DNA of 37,811 nt from Priapulus caudatus (lineage: Eukaryota; Priapulida; Priapulimorpha; Priapulimorphida; Priapulidae): the NCBI RefSeq assembly GCF_000485595.1, contig NW_014577063.1:391883-429693 (forward strand), read 5' to 3'. Below, one piece after another: positions 4,188 through 37,811 of the stretch. Position 1 is the stretch's first letter; each line of letters starts with the position of its first letter. The notes under the pieces are model-generated. The model was given only the letters and a program-made list of their open reading frames with translations, made no database searches and had not been told where the DNA came from. A program made the translations under genes and the position numbers.

Positions 4188-4405
4188 ACTAGCTATTACC
4201 CGTCTCCAGCCGGGTTTGAGTGGGGTCTGATTTGAGGATGGCGGTTTAACCATTTATCTCTCACTTTTAGTTGAGGATGTATTTACAGTAAATATTGATA
4301 TGTAGACTTGAGTCATATATCAATATTTGTTTAAAAAAATTGTATCTAAATATATATAAAAACTGAAATTTTACCTTAAAATTACATACAATTTTCCAAA
4401 TAAAG
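4188..4405 (+). repeat. Dispersed repeat family A, copy 1
   Basis: About 215 bp from AGCTATTACCCGTC through CAGCCGGGTTTG to a run of AAAATTACATACAATTTT-like sequence are close to 10378-10608 in the same orientation. The divergence is a few substitutions and small indels, including an extra CGAT in copy 2. Class unknown; both copies lie within 6.2 kb. Confidence 0.85.
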
Positions 4406-4791
4406 GGAAATGGGAAAGGGAAATAAATCTCTCTCGCAAGACTCACCAGATTTCATCTCCAGACGTCTACCATTCAAAAATTTTCAGGGGGGCATGCCCC
4501 CAGACCCCCCTAGCATGCAGCGCGCCTACGGCGCTTGCTTTTTATTATCACTGAGGATTTTGTCCTTCTGTGCTTCTACTTTCTTAAGACCTGTGGGCGC
4601 CAGTGCATTGCACTGTGTGATATGTGTTGATTGACAAATGCTGGATGTACAGGAAATACCAGAAATCAAGTAAGTCATGTTTAGAAAAAAATTTAAGTTT
4701 TATTTTTAGATTTAGTATATCGCTGTAGGAAACAACCATTATGAACACTTACTATATTATAACAGCTAACACATAAACAGAAGTAACACTA

Positions 4792-4825
4792 TAAGAAACA
4801 AACTTCTGTTACAAAACTTATTAAA
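4792..4825 (-). repeat. U2 3'-flank remnant
   Basis: The sequence TAAGAAACAAACTTCTGTTA and what follows matches the 3' flank of the intact U2 gene (8353-8386) with about two mismatches. This shows that the adjacent U2 fragment comes from a genomic U2 repeat unit and not from a reverse-transcribed snRNA. Confidence 0.8.
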
Positions 4826-4827
4826 CG

Positions 4828-4929
4828 GTGGAGGTGGGAGTGCAAGCACTGACCTCACCTGCTGAAATCAGTTTAATATTCTGGTCCCCGGTAGGGGACG
4901 TATCAGATATTAAGCTGATAAGAACAGAT
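4828..4929 (-). pseudogene. U2 snRNA 3'-half pseudogene, cut at nucleotide 39
   Basis: Read on the minus strand, this matches U2 from nucleotide 39/40 (TCTGTTCTTATCAGC) to about 147. It includes stem-loops IIa/IIb and the GGTGAGGTCAGTGCTTGC stem of loop III. The first 38 nucleotides are replaced by the 3' end of the adjacent retrotransposon. The Sm-site region is rearranged (ATTTTTGG of the intact gene is gone) and stem-loop IV is deleted, so it cannot make a working snRNA. Confidence 0.93.
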
Positions 4930-7470
4930 TTCTGTTTGGGTAAGATTTTATTGAATGAACAATAATACACGTATGGCAGTTGTACAAAAATAAAAAATGA
5001 AATAAAATAATAAAATATGTTTAACTTTAAACAATAGACGTATTCTTAGATCACAGCAAGTTAAAAATCACTGTCCAGGGCAGCAGCGACAATCTTGGTC
5101 GTGCCCTGAATGGCTAGTAGACTGGACTTCTTCCGGAAGGTTGCTCAGGCTTTAGGGGGGATGTTGAGGTAGCCCGAGATGTTGTCATTGGCCTCTCTCC
5201 ATATGTTCCGGTCGTTCCAACGATGAGAGGGAGGACATTGCCGACATCTTCATATTTTCCTTTCTTTTCGGTGTGGGCACGCTCCATGTTGCTCGGCTCA
5301 TTGAACACCACCGCGACGTCAATGATATGGTGAGTCCGTCGGGGGTGTCTAGTTGTATGTCAGGGATGAGCCGGCTGCCGGGGGCTGCAGTCTCCACTCG
5401 GGGGTTAAGTCCAGCTGCATCGAGCGTGTCGACTACCGCCAACTTGACTGAGTCGTGGCGCTCAGTAATGAGCGGGAATGATGATCGGCAGCCCGAGATG
5501 ACGTGGGCTGTCGTTTCCAGCTCGGTAAGGCAGCGTCGGCAGGACTTGTCACTCAGAGTTGACCACGAGCTACCGCGCACTGGGAGGAGGCTGAGGCGCG
5601 ATCGATATAGGTGGCGCCAGTCCTCAAAAGACAAAGGTGTCCAGCAGGAGACCAGGTGGGACACCTCCTTCGGGTGGGGGTCCAGTGCGAGGCCACTCGC
5701 CACACGACCTTGGACAGGAAGGTCGGTAAACTTTGCTGTCCATCGTTGGTAGGCGGCGAGGCGGAGGGAGCGGACCGTTTTGGCCGACACTGCAGAGACG
5801 TCTTCGGCGAGAAGAAGCATATGATTGTCGCCGGATACATCTAATCTGCAGTGCAGCCTGGCGGCCGCGTGTCGTGCTCTCGTCCAGATGTTCGCGCCCC
5901 CGACAGCATGTCTGATCCTATAGAGACCTTCAGCGGTTGACCCCGACAGGAATTCCGAGAGGGGGAGGGGGTCCGGGGCATCTTCTCCTAGCGCTCTGGA
6001 CACTGTCTTCTCCAGCTGTGCCCGGGCAATCTCTCTGACGTCTGGGTCGGACGAGTCCAGCAGCTGGGCAGCCCGAGCCACGGTCCAGACATCAGCCTCC
6101 TGTGAGAGAGGGAGGATGCCTAAACCGCCGGCTCTGCGCTCTGCGTGGAGGAAGGCCTGCGATGAAGAGTCTGGAGTCCTCGTCACCGTGCGCAGGAAGG
6201 CTCTGATGTTCGTGTCCATGTCCTGTAGGAACGCCTTCTCCGTCCGTCCAGATGCCAGAGAGTGTGATAGAGAGGGGAGGAGGTGGCTGCGGAGGACCTC
6301 CATCTTTTGCCAGGGTGCCAACAGCGAGTCCTGTATCTTGGTGAGCCTTTCCGGAAGTGTTCGCGCAGGCCGGAACAGGAGTTTGCACCCTATGGGGATG
6401 CCTAAATAGGTTTCCTGTTCCCCCTGGCGAAGGCAACGGATGGGGACCCCGTAGAGCTTCAGGGCCCCATCATCCGTCTTCTGCTTCCCCTTCTCCAAGA
6501 CGAGGGAGGCGCATTTCACTGGGTTAAAGCGGAGGCCGAGTGTGGTTGCGGCCTGCGACACTCTATCCAGGGAGGTCTGCTGATCTTCCACTGAGCTCCC
6601 CAGCAGGGTGGAGTCATCGGCGTATGTGGTTGTGCGTAGGGTGCGTCCCATGAGCTGGAAGCCAGGTGCCGAGGGGTCCTTGGCCGCACGCAGGAGAGGC
6701 TCTGTTGCCAGGTTGAAGACGACGGGTGACAGGCCGTCGCCCTGCCGAACACCCGCGGTCGGTCGCATCCTGAAGGAGTCGTCGCCCGCCAGAAAGTTGC
6801 AGACCGAGTCCGTATATACGTCCAGGAGGACACGTCTCAGGTCTGCTGGAATCGGCAGGCTCTCGAAAAGATGGTGCAGTACTACCTCGGGGATTGAACC
6901 AAAAGCGTTCGACAGGTCTAGCCACGTGATGGCAAGGTCCCGTCTGTCTCGCCTGGCATCCTCGATGGCCGACTGTAGCAGATGTGTGTGCTCTTGGATG
7001 CTCCGGACGCCCGGAAGGAAGCCCTTCTGCTCTGGGGAGATCCAGCCTAGCTCGACCGCGACTCGCGTCAAGCGTGAGGCCAGAACTCCGGAGAAGAGCT
7101 TGTAGATGGTGGTGAGCAGGCTGATCGGTCGGAAGTTAGCCAGATCGTCTGTTGGCCCCTTCTTATGTACGTGGATCGTTCTGCTCACCTTCCAGGCGGC
7201 CGGGATCCCTAGACGGTGGACGGCACTCAGGATCTTCTCCATGAGGATACCTTGCCCGTCCACTGCGCGGAGGTGCCTATACTCCAGGCGGTCTGCTCCC
7301 GGTGCTGTATTGGAGGCCCGCTTCATACGGGCAGCTATTTCTTGGCGGGTCGGCGGTCCACTCAGGAGGTCTAGCTGTTCCCGGGATGGCGCCGTCCAGG
7401 CGCACGAGTCGAATGCGCGCCGAGCATGGTCTAGAGCCGCCGGTGACAACGCTGGCCTCTCGTACGTTAA
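4930..7470 (-). mobile_element. U2-targeted REL-type non-LTR retrotransposon (Utopia-like), 5' truncated
   Basis: This minus-strand element consists of a reverse transcriptase/endonuclease ORF (7449 to 5114), a 3' UTR of about 184 bp (5113-4930) with AATAAAAT near its end, and an exact junction to U2 nucleotide 39. Known biology: Utopia is a lineage of non-LTR retrotransposons with a restriction-like endonuclease (NeSL-type) inserting at a fixed site in U2 snRNA genes. The domain order seen here (RT, CCHC, REL) and the flank agree. The 5' end is missing or rearranged: no N-terminal zinc fingers are seen, and at 7471 the sequence switches to a duplicated internal piece. Clade placement is inferred from architecture and target. 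Confidence 0.88.
5114..7449 (-). pseudogene. Reverse transcriptase with CCHC and restriction-like endonuclease, one frameshift
   Basis: The product would copy element RNA at a nicked U2 gene by target-primed reverse transcription. RT blocks in order: APGADRLEYRHL (about residues 49-60), FRPISLL (106-112), QKGFLPGVRS (141-150), DLSNAFGS (178-185, catalytic Asp), GVRQGDGLSP (233-242), YADD (276-279, catalytic) and YLGIPIG (348-354). A CX2CX8HX4C zinc knuckle spans about residues 637-654. The REL endonuclease begins with PD at about 696-697, but the matching Asp (IIDVAVVF) and KKGKYEDV lie in another frame. One base appears missing near 5324, after codon 707. The second frame ends at TAG 5114-5116. 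The Met at 7449 is probably not the native start, since the family normally has an N-terminal DNA-binding region. Confidence 0.88.
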
Positions 7471-7597
7471 GCAGCGTCGGCAGGACTTGTCACTCAGAGT
7501 TGACCACTCTCAGACTTATCAGACTTGTCAGACAGTACATAGTTGAGACTGGGAGGAGGCTGAGGCGCGACCGATATAGGTGGCGCCAGTCCTCAAT
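7471..7597 (-). repeat. Duplicated endonuclease-region fragment fused upstream of the retrotransposon
   Basis: Two blocks, 7471-7507 and about 7549-7597, repeat 5530-5627 of the same element, the part coding EDWRHLYRSRLSLLP and CRRC. About 40 bp of unrelated sequence rich in CAGACTTATCAGACTTGTC replaces the short middle. The piece is in the same orientation, so the element appears to start with a copy of its own 3' coding region. Confidence 0.85.
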
Positions 7598-7603
7598 CAC
7601 TAT

Positions 7604-8352
7604 AAAGGGCCGGACACACTAGGCGATTAAATCGGTCGACTAAATCGGGCGACTAAATCGCCCGATTCTATCGCGCGAGTCGAGTGGACACACTAGGCGG
7701 GGGGTAATCGGGCGATTAAATCGCCGGTGAATAAGTCGTGCATGCATGTGCACGTAGACGTGCGTGCGTGCGTGCGTGCGTGTGCACGTACACTGATTAA
7801 ATCGGGTGACAAAATCGCTTAGATCAAAACGTTTTGATATTATTGGGCGATTTTGTCGCATTGCCCGATTGTACAATTCATCAGCCAATCAGAGTTGTTC
7901 AATGATACTGATGTAATAGCAATGTTTCATGTTTAGTATGTCATGTCATGTAATAGCGATGCACGCACGCACACACGCACGCACGCACGAACGTGTACCT
8001 GCGCACGCACGCACGTACGCACGCACGCATGCACGCAGGTGAACGTGCACACGCACGCAGGCACGTACGTACGCACACATGCACGCAGGTAAACGTGCAC
8101 ACGCACGCACGCACACACGCACACATGCAGGCACGGACGTGTACGTTCACACGCACGCGTGTACGCACGTGTAAGTGCACATGCACGCACGCACGCACGT
8201 GTACGTACGCACGCACGCACGTGTACGTGCACACGCACACATGCACGCACGCACGCACGCACGTATACGTGCACACGCACACACACACGCACTCATGCAC
8301 GCACGTTTACACACGCACACATGAATGCACGCACCTAGTGTATCCAGACCTT
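7604..8352. mobile_element. TIR-bounded element with ACGC-rich microsatellite core
   Basis: AAGGGCCGGACACACTAGGCG at 7604-7624 matches the reverse complement of 8332-8352 at about 17 of 21 positions. The left part holds repeated GATTAAATCG/CGACTAAATCG blocks and a second GGACACACTAGGCG at about 7686. From about 7740 it is nearly all GCAC/GTGC-type microsatellite; the long Thr/Arg/His and Cys/Val/Arg ORFs there are artefacts. It separates the intact U2 gene from the retrotransposon. It is probably a non-autonomous DNA transposon; no target duplication is clear. Confidence 0.65.
7740..8335. repeat. ACGC/GCAC microsatellite
   Basis: About 600 bp of CGCACGCACGTACAC-like repeats, interrupted only at about 7795-7935 by AT-rich sequence with further ATCGGGTGAC blocks. 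Confidence 0.9.
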
Positions 8353-8386
8353 AAGAAACAAAGTTCTGTTACAAAACCTATTAAAG

Positions 8387-8403
8387 CAACATGTCTTTTG
8401 ATT
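8387..8403 (-). promoter_or_regulatory. Putative snRNA 3' box
   Basis: On the minus strand, about 20-35 bp beyond the U2 3' end, is AATCAAAAGACATG. This resembles the metazoan snRNA 3'-box consensus (GTTT-N-AAA-N-AGA) that directs 3'-end formation through Integrator. Position and similarity only. Confidence 0.5.
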
Positions 8404-8423
8404 ATGTTTTTCTCCCCAAGGGG

Positions 8424-8611
8424 AGTGGGCCGATTCTGGAGGTACTGCAATACCAGACCAACCCGTGGAGGTGGGAGTGCAAGCACTGACCTCACCTCCC
8501 AATGCCAAAAATCAGTTTAATATTCTGGTCCCCGGTAGGGGACGTATCAGATATTAAGCTGATAAGAACAGATACTACACTTTGATCTTAGCCAAAAGGC
8601 CGAGAAGCGAT
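8424..8611 (-). ncRNA. U2: U2 spliceosomal snRNA, intact
   Basis: U2 snRNA pairs with the intron branch site in the spliceosome. The minus strand begins ATCGCTTCTCGGCCTTTTGG, has the branch-point recognition sequence GTAGTA (nucleotides 34-39), stem-loop IIa (CTTATCAGC...), loop IIb (GTCCCCTACCGGGGAC), Sm site ATTTTTGG, stem-loop III and stem-loop IV with TGGTATTGCAGTACCTCC. The length to the end of stem IV is about 188 nt, the usual animal size. An A is added before GUGUAGUA compared with human, as in insects. No disabling change is seen. The exact 3' end is uncertain by a few bases. Confidence 0.97.
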
Positions 8612-9004
8612 ACCTAACACTAATTAAACATTTCCAAAAATACCACGACACTCAGGTAACAGTCTGTGGTGACAAACTCCTCTGGTTCGTTTTACAAGAT
8701 TTAATTAAAGTCTTATTGACAATAATTATCTTCATCATCCTGCCGATAAAACGTCTATGGTATAGTAAAGTTATACAAAACATGCCGGAACGTTGCATAA
8801 CCAATTTAATGCCATCGCTAACAAAACTAAAAGGTGGGCACATGTTTCTATGAAACAGAGTATTCGCGTGACGTCAGTGTGGTTAAGGTTTTTGCATCAT
8901 TCCTTGATATACGAAAAGTCTGATGCGGAAGTTGATGATATGCGTAGTATGGAATATGACCATGTTGAACCACCAGCACCATCAACGCAGTATGCATTCA
9001 ACTC
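8612..9004 (-). promoter_or_regulatory. U2 upstream (promoter) region of the intact gene
   Basis: The first ~72 bp upstream of the intact U2 differ at only about four positions from the same interval upstream of the truncated U2 (9432-9503), and homology continues with indels to about 8985. A proximal sequence element would be expected about 45-65 bp upstream (8656-8676, ACTCAGGTAACAGTCTGTGG on the plus strand). This block is fully conserved between the copies. PSE identity is inferred from position. Confidence 0.7.
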
Positions 9005-9042
9005 ACTAATCTCTACTATAGTTAGTATAGTAGAGATCAGTG
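9005..9042. repeat. 38-bp near-perfect palindrome
   Basis: ACTAATCTCTACTATA and its complement TATAGTAGAGATCAGT enclose a six-base loop, with one mismatch. It marks the point where homology between the two U2 upstream regions stops. Confidence 0.8.
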
Positions 9043-9074
9043 ATTCAACTTCTGAGATACAGTAAAAACCCGCG

Positions 9075-9075
9075 N
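9075..9075. other. Single N (assembly ambiguity or gap)
   Basis: One N sits immediately before the 16-bp tandem repeat and between two U2 units. It may mark an unresolved join. Confidence 0.9.
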
Positions 9076-9187
9076 GTACTGTACTTTAGTAGTACTGTAC
9101 TTTGGTAGTACTGTACTTTGGTAGTACTGTACTTTAGTAGTACTGTACTTTGGTAGTACTGTACTTTGGTAGTACTGTACTTTATAG
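9076..9187. repeat. 16-bp tandem repeat, seven copies
   Basis: The unit GTACTGTACTTTGGTA (third-last position A or G) is repeated seven times to 9187; the last copy ends TATAG. The tract lies directly after the N. Confidence 0.92.
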
Positions 9188-9391
9188 ACTGTAGTTTGTC
9201 TACACTGTAGTCTGTAGTCACCAGCCTGTCTTCTTTCCAGGAAGCAAGATGTCTTGATGGCCTCCGGTGTGAACAGCAAATGACAATGACTCAGTGAAGA
9301 AAAGAAAATTTCAACTTACATAATGCTGTCTGTAGAACCAGTAGAGCCAGGGTGGATCCTTCCAGTGTGATTCATGGTTTGAACTACCACT
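9188..9391 (-). other. Sequence joined to truncated U2, candidate 5' end of a second U2 insertion
   Basis: This is unique sequence abutting the broken U2 5' half exactly at nucleotide 40/41. On the minus strand it starts AGTGGTAGTTCAAACC and runs into the 16-bp tandem repeats. By position it could be the 5' UTR of a U2-inserted retrotransposon. No coding similarity is seen, so this is inference from the junction alone. Confidence 0.4.
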
Positions 9392-9431
9392 ATACTACAC
9401 TTTGATCTTAGCCAAAAGGCCGAGAAGCGAT
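9392..9431 (-). pseudogene. U2 snRNA 5'-half fragment, nucleotides 1-40
   Basis: The minus strand matches the intact U2 perfectly from nucleotide 1 to 40 (ATCGCTTCTCGG through GTAGTAT) and then diverges completely. The break is at the same position as the start of the 3' half at 4929. The upstream U2 promoter-like region is retained (9432 onward), so this is a disrupted genomic U2 unit. Confidence 0.95.
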
Positions 9432-10030
9432 AGCTAACACTGATTAAACATTTCCAAAAATACCACGACACTCAGGTAACAGTCTGTGGTGTCAAACTCC
9501 TCTTATTGACAATAATTATCTAAATTGCAAAATTGCAAAATTGCAAAATTTCTATTTTCTTATCATCCTGCCGATAAAACGTCCATAGTAAAGTTATACA
9601 AAACATGTCGGAACGCTGCATAGCCAATTTATTGCCACGCTAACAAAACTAAAAGGTGGGCATATGTTTCCATGAAACAGAGTATCCGCGTGACGTCAGT
9701 GTGGTTAGGGTTTTTGCATTTTTTATTTTTTATTTATTTATTTCGATAATTAACAAAGCATACATTACATCGATAACAGCATAAATAAAACAAAAATGCA
9801 GCTAGAAAATTATCGAGGATGAAAACACAAAAAGCGTGGCTAACACACTTATTTCCATTGTGGTCCAACATAACATTGTACATTCTATAAACTATAGCAA
9901 ATATACCCACGATCCTTCCTTGCATCATTCCTTGAAAGTCCGGAAAGTCCGGAAAGTCTGCTGATGCGGAAGTTAATATGCGTAGTATGGAATATGACCA
10001 TGTGCAACCACCAGCACCATCAGCAGGCTG
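9432..10030 (-). repeat. Second copy of the U2 upstream region, interrupted
   Basis: This region parallels 8612-8985: TTTCCAAAAATACC, the GGTAACAGTCTGTGGTG block, AAAACATG...CGGAACG, the AACAGAGTAT...GCGTGACGTCAGTGTGG block and GCGTAGTATGGAATATGACC. It is interrupted by a short AAATTGCA tandem (9522-9550) and a LINE-like insertion (9720-9919). Two homologous U2 units in tandem imply a small U2 gene array. Confidence 0.88.
9720..9919 (-). mobile_element. 5'-truncated LINE-like insertion with TTGCAT duplication
   Basis: Exactly where the other U2 unit reads TTTTTGCATCATTCC, about 200 bp are inserted between two copies of TTGCAT (9714-9719, 9920-9925). On the minus strand the insert ends in ATCGAAATAAATAAATAAAAAA, an A-rich tail. 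Target duplication plus A-rich 3' end indicates insertion by a non-LTR retrotransposon. The family is unknown. Confidence 0.75.
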
Positions 10031-10067
10031 TATGCATTAAACTTCGGAGATAGCCGAGTTCGTGCGT

Positions 10068-10130: not shown

Positions 10131-10377
10131 CGTGTATAGCGCCATCTACCGTCACAAATTGTGATACATAATATACTATTATTAGACTATAGGCCGTACA
10201 CTACAAATGCATTCAAATATTGACTTTTGTGGTCCCCTCCTTGGCAGAACATGAAACATTGTTTAAAGTGTAGCTAATATGATGCCAATCACTATTCCAA
10301 CTTATCCCACTCGCGCAACATGCACACTTACCCACAATTCTTGCTCATATCAGGAGTGTATAATATAAAAACTTCTT

Positions 10378-10608
10378 GCTATTACCCGTCCTCCAGCCGG
10401 GTTTGCATGAGTGGGGTCTGATTTGAGGATGACGGTTTAACCATTTATCTCTCACTTTTAGTTGAGGATGTATTTACAGTAAATACTGATATGTAGACTC
10501 GATCGAGTCATATATCAATATTTGTTTAAAAAAATTGTATCTAAATATATATAAAATCTAAAATTTTAAGTTAAAATTACATACAATTTTTCCAAAAAAG
10601 AGAAATGG
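10378..10608 (+). repeat. Dispersed repeat family A, copy 2
   Basis: This is a close match to 4188-4405 from GCTATTACCCGTCCTCCAG to ACATACAATTTTTCC, same orientation. Confidence 0.85.
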
Positions 10609-10796
10609 GGTGATTTCATAGTACAATTTCACTTATATAGATATTATTTTTGAAAATATTCTGGTACGAAGCATCATTAATAAGACAAATTCTTTAAAAA
10701 AAGCAAAATGCATTGAGTAGTTTTGAAGATATATGTTCTTGCAAGTCAGTGGACGGCGGCGGGCAGGGTTACACCTCCCGTTGTCAAATATTTGCA

Positions 10797-21544: not shown

Positions 21545-24500
21545 CTATATAATATATATATGTATATATATATGTATATATATATATATACAGATGTTAT
21601 TTCTGATACATGAGAGATGCCTCTGGAAGCACTCACAGAAAGTGGTGCTATTGCACAAGCTATACCTTGCTATGTAAGACGAGTTAAATCAGTAAATTGG
21701 TAATAGATGGTCTACCTTTCATTGTAGATATAGCCATCAAGTTTGTGCAGGTCTTTGCCAAACCAACCAACAGGCCTAAAGTTGAGCGCTGCCTTGTGTC
21801 TAGTCCTTAGATTAGTGACTTGTAGTTGTCCTACCTGTAAGTGCCAAGGTTTACACCTGTTATGAAATACCTGTTATACGGTAGAAGTGATATTCGTTGA
21901 AAACATCAGGGAGATACTAGAAGCTATTCGTTTGTGTAGATTATTCACAAGCAGTGTTTGCTTTTTTACGTGTTGCGATATACAGGTCTCACACGCATGG
22001 TACCGTATCAAATTCATTTTACACGAGGAATAGGGGAGGAAGGAAGAAAACAGCTTCACAACAAACGCTAATATGTGCCTTCTAGCTCATAGAAAGGTAT
22101 TTAATAAAGACATAATTATAAATTTTTCATATTTTTCATGAAACCTGTTGCATACTAATAAATATAAATAAAGCAATTATGGTGGTTATAAAGGGCAATA
22201 AGGAAGGCAATAACCTTGAATTAAAAATGTATTTACATGTTGCATTTAAAAAATTCTCAAACCCAACGTCCATTAATTATAGTCGGCCAGAACGTAGTGC
22301 AACAACTTAGAACATATTTTTATACCTGCTCAATCCACATGTCTCCAAAAATTACATTATGGACTACGCAGTTGACATGGTTAAGCTGGTATACTTCATT
22401 TCGCCTGTGATCACAAACAAATTATTTTTAGCAATGCCAACAAAAATCAAGTACATAATGTCGTTCTTCAACGTGCCCCTCTCCAAAATACAATTTGAAA
22501 CAGGATATTTTTTAATGAGATTTAGAAGGTTAGAAGCCAATTAAGGAATGCATACTCAATCCTATATATATATATATATACGCCTAGAGAGAGCCCGAAA
22601 CGGGCATTACACAGAATAATAATGTAGTACAAATATCTATCATTATAAAGTTCATAGATCATCTTTTGTTCAAATTCTTTAGTCTTCGTTCACTTTTTTC
22701 TTTCATACTGTTTGATTCTCTTTATGTTAAAGCATTCACAAGCTGTAAGCACCACAACATTCCTCCACTGATCAAGAACATTACCACACCTCAGAGCACC
22801 TTTGCAGGTATCCTTATATCTCAATTTAGGGCAACCAACAGATCGGAATCCATTTGCTAGCTCGCTGTATAGGAGTGCCTTTGCTGGTCTGTCATTATCC
22901 ATTCTACAAACGTGGCAAAACCAACGCAGACAACTTCTAACTAGCTTCAACTCAATGTCTTCAACACCTGTTCTGTTCAGGACCTCCTCGTCACTGATGA
23001 AATGATCCCATTTAATATGCATGAATAAGCGCAGGTTACGTTGTTTTATTGTTCTCAGTTGTCGAACTTGATGATGGTACAGAGTCAAGGTTTCACTGCC
23101 GTACATCAGAAGTGGCATAAGACACTGGTTTTAAACTTTGACTTTAGTGTTTATTGTAAGGTCACGTGAGTTAAACACTTTGACGTAGTCGACCAAATGC
23201 ACATGTTGCTGCTTGGATACAAGCTGCAAGTTCCTCTTTCATAGAGCAGTAATTTGTTACATAGCTGCCAAGGTATTTGAAGCGGGTGACGTTCGCCAAC
23301 TTGGTGTCAGCTATGAAGAACTCGGCTTCAGTACCAATGCACATGGTCTCTGTCTTTGCAGTGTTAATAAGTAGTCCCATCTTTTTAGCAAGGTCGTTGT
23401 AAGCTGTGAGTAACAACTGTAGTCCCGCTGAAGTGTCACTGAATATGGCTATATCGTCTGCATATTGAGCCTCCCTGATGTACTCAGATCGTCTTTGACT
23501 TCAGTCTTCGAAGATCAAATAGATCACCATCATAGCGAAATCTGACCTTTACACTGCAGGTGTGCTTGATTTTCTTATAAGCAAGGCAAAGTAACTCAAT
23601 CCCTAACGTGCAGAATTAGAATAATTAATTAATTGCCATGGCAGCAGCGTGGGGTGTGTGTGTGAGCATCTGCTATATCTTGACTATACTACTACTGGTA
23701 CATATCTTGCCTGTGCACATAATAGCTATGTGTTGACTTACTCTGTAAGCTCAATCGTTAACTGTCCATCTGGATTAATTTCTATAGATTTTCCCCAAAA
23801 CTTCAACTTCGGATGCACAGAGCCTTGAAGTTTATAGCGTCCCGTTGTTGACTCGGCTTGGAGGGCGCTGATTGGTGGATGGTGGCTAACTTGCTCTAGC
23901 AACACCCGAAACCCATTGTCCAGCCTGCATATAGAAGAAACTGGTCATACAAGCAACAACAAAAAAGTAGCCATATTTAAAGTAACACTGATCACATAAA
24001 CAAACTGCAAATATTCAATCCTAGTACAATAATCATCGCTTTCAGTTTAATGATTGTTGTACGTAACTAGGATAGATACTTCTTAGTAGAGGTGAACTTG
24101 AATATACACTTCAATAAGATAGCCAGAATAGAAACATTTCTCTAATGTTACATGTGCCATGAGAATCACAAGATGGCTTCATCCTTGCACAAATTGCATG
24201 ATACCTCAAATAAAACGCTGTTTGTCACAAAATAAACCTATTAATCACATTTTAGAACATTAAAACTAAATATCAGTATATATATTACATATGTTCATAA
24301 TAATACATAATAAAGGACACAAGAATGCTAGTAAATATTACAAGAGTTGTGGTGCATGTTGGAAACTACATTATGTTTGTGTCAATTAAATAAGATAGAA
24401 AAGGGGGTCAGCACAATATATTTAATATGATTTTACTTCGCTGCCTGGAGATTAAGGCAACACTGACAAATTGACTCGAGTTTGCGTTTAACCAGTCCAA

Positions 24501-29113: not shown

Positions 29114-29693
29114 CAACTACACAGCCGCCGCAATCATTACTTGCGAGAAAATGCGAGCTAGCCACAACATTAATCGGAGCATGCTATGGTCTCTGTACGT
29201 ACCACTCATGCACGCACGTACCACGGGAGGAGCATAGAGCAGTCTTACAGCGGGGGCACTTTACATTACATGCATGGCGGGCGGATGGGCAGCCGATCAG
29301 GAAACCGAGCACAGGAACGATCGCATGTCCTCAATACGCCGTGACGTTGCGCGCTGACAATCACTCATATAGCGGCATAAGCCGCTATGCGCCCTACGGT
29401 ATTGTTCGCTACCTGTGCTATTGTTCGTTACCTACGCTATTATTGTACAGGCCAAACGTACCGCCACAGGTGATACGTTACGATACCTACGCAGCGATCG
29501 TACAGAACGAACTGGCATTTGTAGAGACAGGTGAGGAAAAATGAAGAAAGATCGAAAGATGGATAAACAACAGACAGACAAAAAAGGCTAATGTGTTCAT
29601 GATTAAATGATAGAATAGAATAATTCAATAGGTCGATTGCTAGCTAGCCACAGAGAGAGATAAAGCGCGCGCAAGCCGTACAGCCTATAGCCT
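28125..29693. other. No gene recognised upstream of the ORP domain
   Basis: This is where the preceding ORP exon (here found at 20270-20345) would be expected. I see a CAG run, ACGCACGT microsatellite near 28976-28995 and no convincing exon. Confidence 0.45.
29079..29113. repeat. CAG trinucleotide run
   Basis: About eleven CAG repeats. The Ser or Leu runs in overlapping ORFs come from this. Confidence 0.95.
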
Positions 29694-29789
29694 TGTACGC
29701 ATTCGGCTCCAGGCTTATTGGGTTTTTAGATTATGGATGTGCCATGAATATGACAACACTGTGATGTCATTGAGGCAGTTCAGGAATCC

Positions 29790-30285
29790 ATGTTTAACCC
29801 TCCTCTTGAGGTCAAAATGTTATCAGACACCTACTCTTCGCACGCAGTGGAAAGCACTTCATGGTCCTTTCATAAAGTGATAAAAATGGGTAGGTCAGCG
29901 CTTAAACAAAAAAGTTTTTCACTCTGTCCATATTAGGGCCATGTCCTCAGAAAATGCTCTGATATCTGACCTTTCCGCCACGCCTTTGAGCCTTGCCCGA
30001 ATATAAGAGCATAGGTCGCAGCCGTTAAGATTTGTGCCGCAATTCCGTATTCTCCTCATTACTAAGTTAAGGGAGAAATATTCCTCCTCCATTTACACAT
30101 CTGAACCTTTGACCCTTGACCCCCAAATTTGTCATCCTGAGTCCTTTTCACGATCCCCCCCCGACGTCCCGAATATCGTGACCGTACGGTCGAGCGGTTA
30201 AGATTTGTGCCCAACTGGCGGCGGAGCGGACGCACGATCATGCGATTCTACAAGCTGCATCTGACTTCGTCAGATGAGCTAAAAG
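29790..30285 (+). repeat. Repeat family B, copy 1 (inside duplication 1)
   Basis: From CCATGTTTAACCCTCCTCTT to a terminal hairpin CATCTGACTTCGTCAGATG followed by AGCTAAAA. Shares CGCACGC..GTGGAAAGCAC, CTTTGACCCTTGACC and AAGATTTGTGCC with the other three copies. Probably a non-autonomous transposon; no transposase. Confidence 0.75.
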
Positions 30286-31747
30286 ACGACACACTGTGGG
30301 CTACAAATTACAATATCCCTACTGACTCCGTGATTCAAATGAAAGCTTGATATTCATGATTATGCCACTCCATATTTTTCTCTCAATGAATGTAGTATAC
30401 CTTTTACTAATTCCAACACTGATAAAGTAACTTGGCTCTCAGCCTCTCACAGCTAGGCGGGCCTGCGGCAACTGTACACAGGCTATAGTACTAGAGCTAG
30501 GGTACTGCATGACCTAATATGTATAGTATCAAAAATATAGCTATGCAACGAATATATGGTCATCATATATCTAATACACAAACATATATGCCACTACTAT
30601 ACACATACATATGCTCATAATAATATACAAAATATCTGTGTAACAATACTCATTTACCATCTGTATAGGAACATGATAATCAGGGTATCACTATACCAGC
30701 TACCCTATGCACATTGCACACACTCCAAACATATTACCAAGTGTCCCTCCCCCTTCTTCCCTCCCTACCGCCACAAAGCTAATTAAGGAACAAATTAGTG
30801 TAACAAATTAGTGGAGACAACATAAGTGTAAGTGTTATGGTAGGTGCCAAAACACAACCTTGTATGAGCATGTAATTTCTTCTAGTTGAGGAACACGGCC
30901 AATAATAACATGATTGTGGTAAATGATTTAGTATAAATTTCCACTCCATCAACAATAATTCACAAACCAATGAAATGCGTGTAAGCGCAGGTAAAGGTGC
31001 ACTAATGAGTAATAGATCATTAGATGATTAGGTCAGGTGCATGGCACGCAAGACCCTGGTGACCTGGAGATAGTGGCGTACTGAATATCAACTTTTTACG
31101 CAAATGTGCAATTTGAATGTCGGAACAAGTGCCGGATGGAGCGGACAGCGCTCATCTTTACGGTCTACTGCGGTGACTCTGTGGTGGAGTGGCTGGCGAT
31201 TCTAGTAAAACCCTGTTAGTCCCAAATGTGTTCACATATGCGCCAAACAGTCGGAAGGCACAAGGATGGTATCAGGAACAACCCTCAAAGGAATGTCTTC
31301 GTTGGATCGTTATGAAAGTTGCCACGAGTGTGCGTGTACGTTTAAGTGTCTTAATATTAAGATGGAAGCTCCCATCGCACGTAGTAGCAACAACTATTTG
31401 CAAGACAGAATAGGTAAGGATTCATCCATTTAGCTACGCCAAGCCTACAGCCGAAATTAGAGAGCTGCCACCTGTAACTAATTAACGCAGGCAAAACTAC
31501 ACAGTACTTCACCACCACACATGCGCCACTGGCCAGTGGCCACTGGCAGTGGCTATAAGTTACATGTAAAACACTGACAGTACAGAATTCCATGGAAAAT
31601 TATACGATTTAAGGAAGCATAAACCGTTCTTCAACCCAATTTAGCTTTGGAAATTTCACTGTGACATTGTTAGCCTCATACATCCAGGCATGTATAGATT
31701 CTACTGGCAAACCCGGCAGTCAAATTCTTTCTAACAGTAAACAATTC

Positions 31748-32311
31748 CATGTTTAACCCACCTCTTGAGGGTCAAAGTTATCCGACACTTACTCTTCGCA
31801 TGTCACAGAAAGTACATTTTATGGTCCTTTCAACTAAAGCCATAAAAATGCTAGGGTCACCGCTGAAACAAAAAGTTTCAATCGCTCTGTCAGACCATGT
31901 CCTCAGAAAATGTCTAAATCTGCCCTGTGCCCATTGACCTTTGACCTGTGACCTCCAATTTCGGCACCAGTATGGCTTTTCCTACCATGATGCTATACAC
32001 CGACTATCACGAGCCCTAGGTCTAGCGGTTTAGATTTTGTGCCGCAATTCTGCATTTCCTCCCTATACCCTTAAGTTAAGGAGGGAATGTTCCCCCTTCT
32101 TTTACACCATCTTGACCTTTGACCTTTGACCCCCCAGCTTTCGACATCCCAACTCGGTTTTCGGGATTACCCCCCCACGCCCGAATATCGTGGACCGTAC
32201 GTCGAGGGTTAAGATTTGTGCCAAGTGTTGACGGACGGACGCACGGCGCACGCCGACGACGGACAATCATGCAAGCTACAAGCTGCATCTGACTACGTCA
32301 GATGAGCTAAA
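31748..32311 (+). repeat. Repeat family B, copy 2
   Basis: CCATGTTTAACCCACCTCTT to CATCTGACTACGTCAGATGA, with a GACGGACGGACGCACGG tract before the terminal hairpin. It is clearly diverged from copy 1 and so predates the segmental duplication. Confidence 0.75.
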
Positions 32312-32624
32312 AATTATTTGCTCGAAATTAGGTGTACACGAAACACGCTGCAGGTGAAAGTATATCAGCGCACAGTAGCGTGTTTTGGTCGCGTTCGTGA
32401 CCTTTCATGACCTACAGTAAGTAGGTCTATGCGTACCAGCTGCCTATTTTCGCCTACTGGTTTTATACAGGCGCATCTGCACCGCACTGACACACTCCAA
32501 CACACATGCGCGTTATAAAAACACGTTTTGCGCGGGATCGATCGTATAGACGCATCGATCGGATATGCGCCAAGATGCGGTCATACATATATATCATGAT
32601 TTATTACGATTTACATCATCATTA

Positions 32625-34814: not shown

Positions 34815-34887
34815 AAAATCAGATGGGATTCGATCCAACGACCTTTGAGCCGTGACACCTATGCTGTACGCATTCGGCTATCCAGGC
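34815..34887 (-). repeat. tRNA-like sequence (SINE head or decayed tRNA)
   Basis: The minus strand GCCTGGATAGCCGAATGCGT has an A-box-like TAGCCGAATGCG. Further on, GGATCGAATCC resembles a B box, followed by TTTTTT, a Pol III stop. The ends do not pair as an acceptor stem, so it is not an intact tRNA. A tRNA-derived SINE promoter is likelier. The left edge of the segmental duplication lies inside it. Confidence 0.45.
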
Positions 34888-34960
34888 TTATTGGGTTTTT
34901 AGATTATGGATGTGCCATGAATATGACAACACTGTGATGTCATTGAGGCAGTTCAGGAAT

Positions 34961-35459
34961 CCATGTTTAACCCTCCTCTTGAGGGTCAAAATGTTATCAG
35001 ACACCTACTCTTCGCACGCCAGTGGAAAGCACATTTCATGGTCCTTTCATAAAGTGATAAAAATGGTAGTCAGCGCTTAAACAAAAAAGGTTTTCACTCT
35101 GTCCATTTAGGGCCATGTCCTCAGAACAATTCGTTGATATCTGACCTTTCCCCCACTGCCCTTTGAACCTGCCGAATATAAGAGATGAGGTCGCAGCCGT
35201 TAAATTTGTGCCGCAATTCCGTATTTCCTCCTATTACCTAAGTTAAGGGAGAAATATTCCTCCTCCATTTACACATCTTGAACCTTTGACCCTTGACCCC
35301 CAAATTTGTCATCCTGAGTCCTTTTCACGATTCCCCCCCGACGTCCCGAATATCGTGACCGTACGTCGAGCGGTTAAAGATTGTGCCCAACTGTGGACGG
35401 ATGGACGGACGCCACGACATGCGATTCTACAAGTGCATCTGACTTCGTCAGATGAGCTA
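34961..35459 (+). repeat. Repeat family B, copy 3
   Basis: Counterpart of 29790-30285 within duplication copy 2. Ends with the same CATCTGACTTCGTCAGATG hairpin. Confidence 0.75.
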
Positions 35460-36922
35460 TAAAAGACACACACTGTGGCTACAAATTACAATATCCCTAC
35501 TGACTCCGTGATTCAAATGAAAGCTTGATATTCATGATTATGCCACTCCATATTTTTTCTCTCAAATGAATGTAGTATACCTTTTACTAATTCCCAACAC
35601 TGAAAAGTAACTTGGCTCTCAGCCTCTCACAGCTAGGGGGCCTGCGGCAACTGTACACAGGCTATAGTACTAGAGCTAGGGTACTGCATGACCTAATATG
35701 TATAGTATCAAAAATATAAGCTTATTGCAACGAATATATGGTCATATATATATCTAATACACAAACATATATTGCCACTACTATACACATACATATGCTC
35801 ATAATAATATACAAAATAGCTGTGTAACAATATCACTTTACCATCTGTATAGGAACATGATATCAGGGTATCCACTATACCAGAGACCCTATGCACATTG
35901 CACACACTCCAAACCATACCAAGTGTCCCTCCCCCTTCTTCCCTCCCTACCGCCACAAGCTAATTAAGGAACAAATTAGTGTAACAAATTAAGTGAGACA
36001 ACAATAAGTGTAAGTGTTATGGTAGGTGCAAAACACAACCTTGTATGTAGCATGTAATTTCTTCTAGTGAGGAACACGGCCAATAATAACATGATTGTGG
36101 TAAATGATTTAGTATAAATTTCCACTCCATCAACAATAATTCACAAACCAATGAAATGCGTGTAAGCGCAGGTAAAGGTGCACTAGAATAGATCATAGAT
36201 TGATTAGGTCAAGTGCATGGCACGCAAGACCTCCGTGGTGACCTGGAGAATAGTGGCGTACTGATATCAACTTTTTACGAAATGTGCAATTTGAATGTCG
36301 AACAAGTGCCGGATGGAGCGGACAGCGCTCATCTTACGTCTACTGCGGTGACTGCTGTGGTGGCGAGTGTGCGATTCTAGTAAAACCCTGTTAGTCCCAA
36401 ATGTGTTCAGACATATGCGCCGAAACAGTGGAAGGCACAGGGATGGTATCAGGAAACCTTACTCAAGGAATGTCATTGGGATCGTTATGAAAGTTGCCAC
36501 GAGATGCGTGTACGTTTAAGTGTCTTAAATTAAAGATGGAAGCTCCCATCGCACGTAGTAGCAACAACTATTTGCAAGACAGAATAGGTAAGGATTCATC
36601 CATTTAGCTACGCCAAGCCTACAGGCCGAAATTAGAGAGCTGCCACCTGAACTAATTAACGCAGGCAAAACTACACAGTACTATTCAACCACCACATGCC
36701 CACTGGCCAGTGGGCCACTGGCAGTGGCATATAAGTTACATGTAAACACTGGACAGTACAGAATTGCCATGGAAAATTATACGATTTAAGGAAGCATAAA
36801 CCGTTCTTCAACCAATTTAGCTTTGGAAATTTCACCTGGACATTGTAGCCTCATACATCCAGGCATGTATAGATTCTACTGGCAAACCCGGCAGTCAAAT
36901 TCTTTCCTAACAGTAAACAATT

Positions 36923-37500
36923 CCATGTTTAACCCACCTCTTGGAGGGTCAAAAGTTATCCGACACTTACTCTTCGCATGTCAGCAGAAAGTACATTTTA
37001 TGGTCCTTTCAATAAAGCCATAAAAATGCTAGCGGTCACCGCTGAAACAAAAAGTTTCAATCGCTCTGTCAGACCATGTCCTCAGAAAATGTCTAAATTG
37101 CCCTTGTGCCCCATTGACCTTTGACCTGTGACCTCCAATTTCGGCACAGTAATGGCTTTTCCTACCATGATGCTATACACCGACTATCACGAGCCTAGGT
37201 CCGTCAGCGGTTTAGATTTGTGCCGCAATTCTGCATTTCCTCCCTATACCTTAAGTTAAGGAGGGAATGGTTCCCCCTTCTTTTACACCATCCTTGACCT
37301 TTGACCTTTGACCCCCCAAACTTTGACATCCCAACTCGTTTTCGGATTACCCCCCCACTTCCCAGAATATCGTGACCGTACGTCGGAGCGGTTAGATTTG
37401 TTGCCAGTGTTGACACGGGACGGACGCACGGACGCCACGGACGACGGACAATCATGCAAGCTACAAGCTGGCATCTGGACTACGTCAGATGAAGCTAAAA
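36923..37500 (+). repeat. Repeat family B, copy 4
   Basis: Counterpart of 31748-32311 within duplication copy 2. The terminal hairpin has an extra G (CATCTGGACTACGTCAGATG). Confidence 0.75.
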
Positions 37501-37811
37501 ATTATTTGCTCGAAAATTAGGTGTACACGAAACACGCTGCAGCGGAAGTATATCAGCGCACAGTAGTCCGTGTTTTGGTCGCGTTCGTGACCTTTCATGA
37601 CCTACAGTAAGTAGGCGTATGCGGACCAGCTGCCCTATTTTCGCCTACTGTGTTTTCTTACAGGCGACATCTGCACCGCCACTGACACCACTCCAACACA
37701 CATGCGCGTTATGAAAAACACGTTTTGCGCGGGATCGATCGATATAGACGCATCGAATCGGCATAGCGCCAAGATGCGGCGTCATTACATATATATTCAT
37801 CTCTCTCCGAT

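Follow-up and report, generated by a model that had tools for sequence, protein, structure and literature searches.

A probable Utopia-type retrotransposon in the U2 small nuclear RNA genes of Priapulus caudatus

We analyzed a 37,811-nucleotide (nt) stretch of the Priapulus caudatus genome (RefSeq assembly GCF_000485595.1, contig NW_014577063.1, positions 391,883 to 429,693 of the forward strand), hereafter called the window, in which an intact U2 small nuclear RNA (snRNA) gene lies between two U2 fragments that are associated with parts of a retrotransposon. Our results indicate, with a probability of roughly 0.9, that a low-copy Utopia-type non-long-terminal-repeat (non-LTR) retrotransposon occupies U2 snRNA genes of this species. 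A U2-targeting, Utopia-like element had been suggested in an initial annotation of this DNA, and the suggestion is supported by the genome as a whole: every partial U2 gene breaks at nt 39-42, and three of four element 3′ ends join U2 at nt 39. This finding would extend the U2-targeting Utopia lineage to a new phylum, Priapulida, in which a single genome shows both junctions, and is relevant to the unsolved problem of how an element can persist when its essential target genes are so few.

U2 genes broken at a common site

The genome (385 Mb, 2952 contigs) was searched with the 188-nt U2 sequence as the DNA query. The assembly is gapped and repeat counts are lower bounds. Its COX1 (contig C2952) matched that of Priapulus caudatus without a difference over 447 residues, with Halicryptus next at 93%. 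Loci are named by contig label, C3 being that of the window locus and C1, C111, C505, C838, C1369 and the like those of other contigs. Nine matches were found. Three were full-length (one in C3 and two in C1, at 100% and at 99% identity, the latter with two single-base indels when aligned), three started at nt 39 (C505, C1369 and C3), and three ended, as aligned, at nt 40 (C3), nt 41 (C111) and nt 42 (C1369). When the 5′ junctions were read by eye, they fell at nt 39 in C1369, nt 40 in C3 and nt 40 or 41 in C111. All six partial U2s recovered in this genome-wide search for halves joined to non-U2 DNA, which the initial annotation had proposed, are therefore broken at one site, nt 39-42; they represent four or five broken genes, as against the three full-length ones. 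C1369 was the sole locus with both sides of an insertion, U2 nt 1-39 being followed by a 5′-truncated element and then by U2 nt 39-188. As U2 resumes at nt 39 or 40, the duplication amounts to 0-1 nt, and this insertion is near-blunt, without a target-site duplication.

In the window, a 5′ half ending at nt 40 and a 3′ half starting at nt 39 had been described, with an intact U2 gene and its own promoter region between them. Sequence identity, the Rfam match and flank alignments agreed with this description (Table 1), as did the position of the GTAGTA motif, just after which the target site had been placed and which we located at U2 nt 34-39. Neither half is a chance match, since the genome search returned them with E-values of 5.8e-12 (5′ half) and 9.9e-38 (3′ half); the Rfam U2 span over the 5′ half (9351-9431) scored 42.9 bits, below the gathering score of 46. 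The opening 65 nt of the 3′ half equal U2 nt 39-103 without a mismatch, and its decay consists of a 7-nt internal gap and an end at nt 147 of 188. Because its 3′ flank matches those of two C1 U2 units, this half belonged to a genuine U2 unit.

The intact gene (unit B) was identical across 188 nt to one C1 copy and probably works. Unit B and the broken unit carrying the 5′ half (unit A) matched at 85.5% between 8572-8897 and 9392-9719 and at 79% between 8892-9003 and 9920-10043, and the 72 nt adjoining U2 agreed at 69 positions. A small dispersed palindrome was seen by eye in the unit B upstream region (~9000-9048), and the unit B 3′ flank contains a conserved AATCAAAA, which we take to be 3′-box-like. 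The two full-length C1 genes (G000:C1:1650112-1650303 and 1659973-1660164) are divergent and separated by ~9.7 kb; long runs of N occur in the interval as well as around the genes.

The fragments could instead be ordinary U2 pseudogenes that happen to lie beside unrelated repeats, and the decay of the window 3′ half would fit such an origin. We consider this highly improbable and set it aside. All six fragments share the one break site, and the same element was present at all three of the 3′ junctions. Moreover, promoter-region DNA accompanies the 5′ halves of C3 and C111, and genomic 3′ flank follows the 3′ halves; pseudogenes derived from RNA would have neither.

Table 1. Features of the U2 region, in window coordinates
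Feature	Position	Strand	Evidence
3′ flank of a U2 unit, following the 3′ half	4711..4827	-	90.5% and 95.7% to the 3′ flanks of two C1 units
U2 3′ half, decayed, nt 39 to nt 147	4828..4929	-	Rfam span 4779-4951, 54 bits
Element 3′ untranslated region, AATAAAA and short A-rich end	4930..5060	-	similarity to C838; junction reading
Element body: reverse transcriptase, linker, zinc knuckle, restriction-like endonuclease	5061..7470 (5061 approximate)	-	Pfam and PDB matches
Scrambled element 5′ end	7471..7596	-	repeats its own 5530-5566 and 5579-5627
Terminal-inverted-repeat DNA element, CA-rich interior, like a miniature inverted-repeat transposable element (MITE)	7606..8351		by eye
Unit B 3′ flank	8352..8423	-	95.5-97% to both C1 units
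Intact U2 snRNA gene, unit B	8424..8611	-	Rfam 183 bits (profile span 8420-8611)
Unit B upstream/promoter region	8612..9059	-	window repeat matches; alignment with other U2 units
Single N near the joint of the 5′ untranslated region piece and unit B upstream DNA	9075		N scan
Element 5′ untranslated region piece with 16-bp repeats (~9076-9187)	9076..9391	-	84% match at C111
U2 5′ half, nt 1-40	9392..9431	-	identical to U2 nt 1-40
Unit A (broken 5′ unit) upstream/promoter region	9432..10043	-	repeat matches to unit B; alignment with C1 units

The element, its ends and its relatives

The junction at the 3′ half showed that it adjoins the 3′ end of a non-LTR element of the restriction-like-endonuclease class, as had been claimed. 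A 754-amino-acid frame (5185-7449) contains a reverse transcriptase (RT) domain (Pfam RVT_1, 3.9e-22). Its closest solved relatives are R2 proteins in the PDB (best match 4.2e-40), and it resembles R2 beyond the RT core, including an R2-like linker. A zinc knuckle follows the RT, with the pattern CRRC...H...C and the spacing C-x2-C-x8-H-x4-C. The PD..D..K endonuclease signature was recognized by eye in the C838 copy; Pfam gave no endonuclease match. The window frame is broken between the PD and D of the endonuclease core and again near 5200, and because of the break in the endonuclease the end of the 754-amino-acid frame is a wrong-frame run-on. The window copy has nothing that corresponds to the first 250-500 residues of the longer relatives, so that its N-terminus is missing; as to the one to three N-terminal zinc fingers of Utopia, a partial cysteine/histidine block was seen by eye in C111 and C505. 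The protein initially read from this frame thus has the RT ascribed to it, but it is not a natural protein. With its truncated and scrambled 5′ end and broken endonuclease frame, the window copy is dead.

Close copies of the element were found at C3, C1369, C505 and C838, together with a fragment at C467. The fragment could not be used to examine 3′ ends, nor could C111, where only the 5′ side is present. The 3′ region occurs in four genomic copies, three of which (C3, C505 and C1369) run precisely into U2 nt 39. Window positions 4930-5200 matched C838 at 89% across 271 nt. Insertion into 28S, as for R2-type elements, was not what the three of four copies with U2 junctions displayed.

The segment between the window 5′ half and the N at 9075 has a sole other long copy, at C111, where it likewise follows a U2 5′ half; the remaining search matches were 60 bases at C474 (in the 16-bp repeats), the palindrome and U2 itself. 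C111 continues into two blocks common to C505 (74% and 77%), and C505 continues past the RT as far as a U2 3′ half. Because these blocks link the segment to C505, the RT and the U2 3′ half, we assign it to the element as its 5′ untranslated region (UTR), which joins U2 at nt 40 or 41 in C3 and C111. The scrambled block at the other 5′ end copies a stretch of the coding region that ends at the zinc knuckle and contains a ~40-nt filler (7507-7547), for which comparison with the window and eight loci gave no source. A duplicated 5′ block of this kind is what template jumping would leave, and such jumping may have been its source.

In our model of insertion, the endonuclease would cut U2 DNA behind the branch-point recognition sequence, between GTAGTA and TCTG at about nt 39/40, and reverse transcription would be primed on the cut strand (target-primed reverse transcription). 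As synthesis would start on the cut strand, the model predicts a precise 3′ end and a 5′ end that is often truncated or scrambled.

To place the element we used an RT tree of 43 rows, with R2 (PDB 9nl3) as the outgroup and 38 homologues from the 120 listed of 185. The window, C505 and C838 sequences formed one clade (100/100), which was nested in a set of 19 rows (100/99) that also included Daphnia proteins, one protein from Elysia and unnamed sequences. Further out came insect and turtle proteins, and R2 stood apart together with a second element of this genome, on contig C37 (100/100). Among the sources of the rows, Camponotus floridanus, Dendroctonus ponderosae, Pelodiscus sinensis and Daphnia appear in the Utopia host table of PMC4640811, the rows themselves being unlabelled. 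No relatives of the element with flanking DNA were found among the prokaryotic and viral contigs searched.

Keno, a member of the Tx1 group, has been reported at the same U2 site, and Kojima and Jurka (2015, PMC4640811) report identical 3′ flanks for it. That the element is Keno is nonetheless extremely improbable. The same source gives Keno an apurinic-type endonuclease, whereas in the protein found here the similarity to R2 continues past the RT core, and both a zinc knuckle and the PD..D..K signature are present. We set Keno aside on this restriction-like-endonuclease type of C-terminus, the N-terminal region where an apurinic-type domain would lie being absent from the window copy.

Several observations weigh against a U2-specific Utopia-type element. 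The PD..D..K signature carries one change each in C505 and C1369 and is frame-broken in C3. The rows of the RT tree bear no family label, with no labelled Utopia, NeSL, R4 or CRE among them; the phylogeny proposed in the initial annotation is thus answered in its R2 part, where the element stands apart. Copies lacking the U2 3′ flank had been named in advance as evidence against the U2 target, and one was found: C838 has the same 3′ UTR followed by other DNA without U2, indicating that site specificity is not absolute or that the U2 flank was lost there. No recognizable U2 promoter was found for the C1369 5′ half in the flank comparison, and no RT at C111 within the 10 kb examined. At C3 the 5′ side of the element meets the 3′ flank of the intact gene instead of a U2 5′ half, and the N at 9075, the only single-base N of the window, is situated at the end of the 16-bp repeats.

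Local arrangement and a mosaic copy

On the minus strand the order is upstream region A, the U2 5′ half, the 316-nt 5′ UTR piece, the N at 9075, ~15 unassigned bases, upstream region B, the intact U2, its interrupted 3′ flank, the scrambled block, the RT part, the 3′ UTR and the U2 3′ half. Two hit units plus a survivor in a tandem array, or one split insertion, had been offered as explanations of this order. The two proved indistinguishable, and a tandem array, which would have at most three units, is weakly supported by two same-strand units and a relic. The local history that we prefer, at slightly less than an even chance, has two units hit on either side of an intact one, with deletions afterwards. 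Units A and C would both have been hit, the intact unit B between them probably being spared. Deletion, possibly in part at integration, would then have removed the parts of the element closest to B along with the 3′ half of A and the 5′ half of C; alternatively, the missing parts may be hidden at the N at 9075.

It is conceivable, although distinctly unlikely, that there was only one insertion and that recombination or gene conversion later placed an intact U2 unit inside it, splitting the 5′ UTR from the RT. The intact unit does lie between one 5′ half and one 3′ half that are oriented alike, and one element could supply both the 5′ UTR piece and the RT part, between which there is no overlap. 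However, about the same number of joints would be needed, a whole unit with ~450 nt of upstream DNA would have to be inserted as well, and the same-site breaks elsewhere show that repeated hits occur. The geometry might also be partly an artefact of assembly, with the N at 9075 hiding a gap that contains the rest of element A and its U2 3′ half, which we regard as somewhat unlikely. The N lies ~15 bases from the unit B upstream DNA, the 16-bp repeats that it ends are hard to assemble, and one further single-base N was present in the loci checked. Such a gap would leave the C side unexplained, as no N separates the intact U2 from the element there, and would not account for the other loci. Even with two hits and later deletions, the local geometry may partly be an assembly effect.

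We aligned the C3, C838, C505 and C1369 copies and examined the 271 gap-free sites at which C3 equals C838, C1369 differs and C505 sides with either. To the left of column 1131 (window ~6340), C505 agreed with C3 and C838 at 114 of 126 sites, whereas to the right it agreed with C1369 at 123 of 145 sites. None of 2000 shuffles matched this single-crossover fit. The main crossover lies at ~4294-4303 of L026 (G000:C505:67001-77000), and the C505 stretch contains no N bases. The exceptions (12 on the left and 22 on the right) are partly clustered, with one run of six, and smaller exchanges are therefore possible. We tentatively suggest, with more doubt than confidence, that C505 would have taken its 3′ part and 3′ UTR from one subfamily and its 5′ part from the other through one main crossover, such that subfamilies swap halves; this reading also takes in the scrambled 5′ end of the window copy. 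The source of the C505 mosaic could be template switching while reverse transcription proceeded, recombination or gene conversion between copies at a later time, or a chimera made in assembly. If the first of these were true, lineages that live on only a handful of target genes would be reshuffled during target-primed reverse transcription, which might explain how several of them can be maintained with so few U2 copies. C505 thereby offers a testable process.

Other features of the window were also recorded. The MITE-like element in the unit B 3′ flank has the ends AGGKCYGGAYACACTAGG and a duplicated TAA (7603-7605 and 8352-8354), and on its far side the U2 flank resumes for a few bases. A ~230-nt repeat (91%) occurs on either side of the U2 region, at 4189-4414 and 10375-10609. 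Positions 29674-32594 and 34848-37796 form a ~3-kb direct duplication (92.7% identity) with internal repeats, and a short RT fragment on the minus strand (23243-23464) has 39% identity over 74 residues to an ant homologue.

Comparison with known elements

The element is like R2 in its RT and linker and in its endonuclease class; it differs in target, that of R2 being 28S ribosomal DNA, and in its place in the RT tree. The second restriction-like-endonuclease element mentioned above, L043 (G000:C37:291015-295370), runs into 28S at the canonical R2 site, with 28S sequence from ~3855 of L043, resuming at TAGCCAAATGCC (Rfam LSU, 478 bits). R2-like fragments without boundaries are reported for P. 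caudatus in PMC5035012, a paper whose one mention of Utopia is in its reference list. Keno shares the U2 site with our element and differs in the type of endonuclease reported for it.

We found no report of Utopia in priapulids in the open-access literature searched, Repbase and most subscription papers being outside that search, and Priapulida is absent from the host table of PMC4640811. We conclude that the element is a well-supported new case of a Utopia-type element in a new phylum, that its rearranged geometry in the window is not secure, and that the mosaic copy is the newest part of these findings.

Utopia is described in PMC4640811 by a U2 3′ flank starting at nt 39 and, in arthropod copies, by the absence of a target-site duplication. 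The P. caudatus element shares the first feature in three of four copies (C838 lacks it) and the near-blunt insertion at C1369. As in Utopia, a member of the NeSL clade as presented there, the endonuclease is of the restriction-like class and, by sequence, the RT is followed by a zinc knuckle and then the endonuclease. Copies are few, broken U2s are at least as numerous as intact ones, and some insertions lie outside U2. The same text describes in Phytophthora an intact U2 upstream of an inserted U2 whose 5′ fragment is missing, an arrangement that the window resembles in its intact upstream gene. Unlike in Phytophthora, U2 5′ halves are kept beside the element here, as was found in other families, and one copy, unlike the Utopia elements covered there, resembles a mosaic of two subfamilies.

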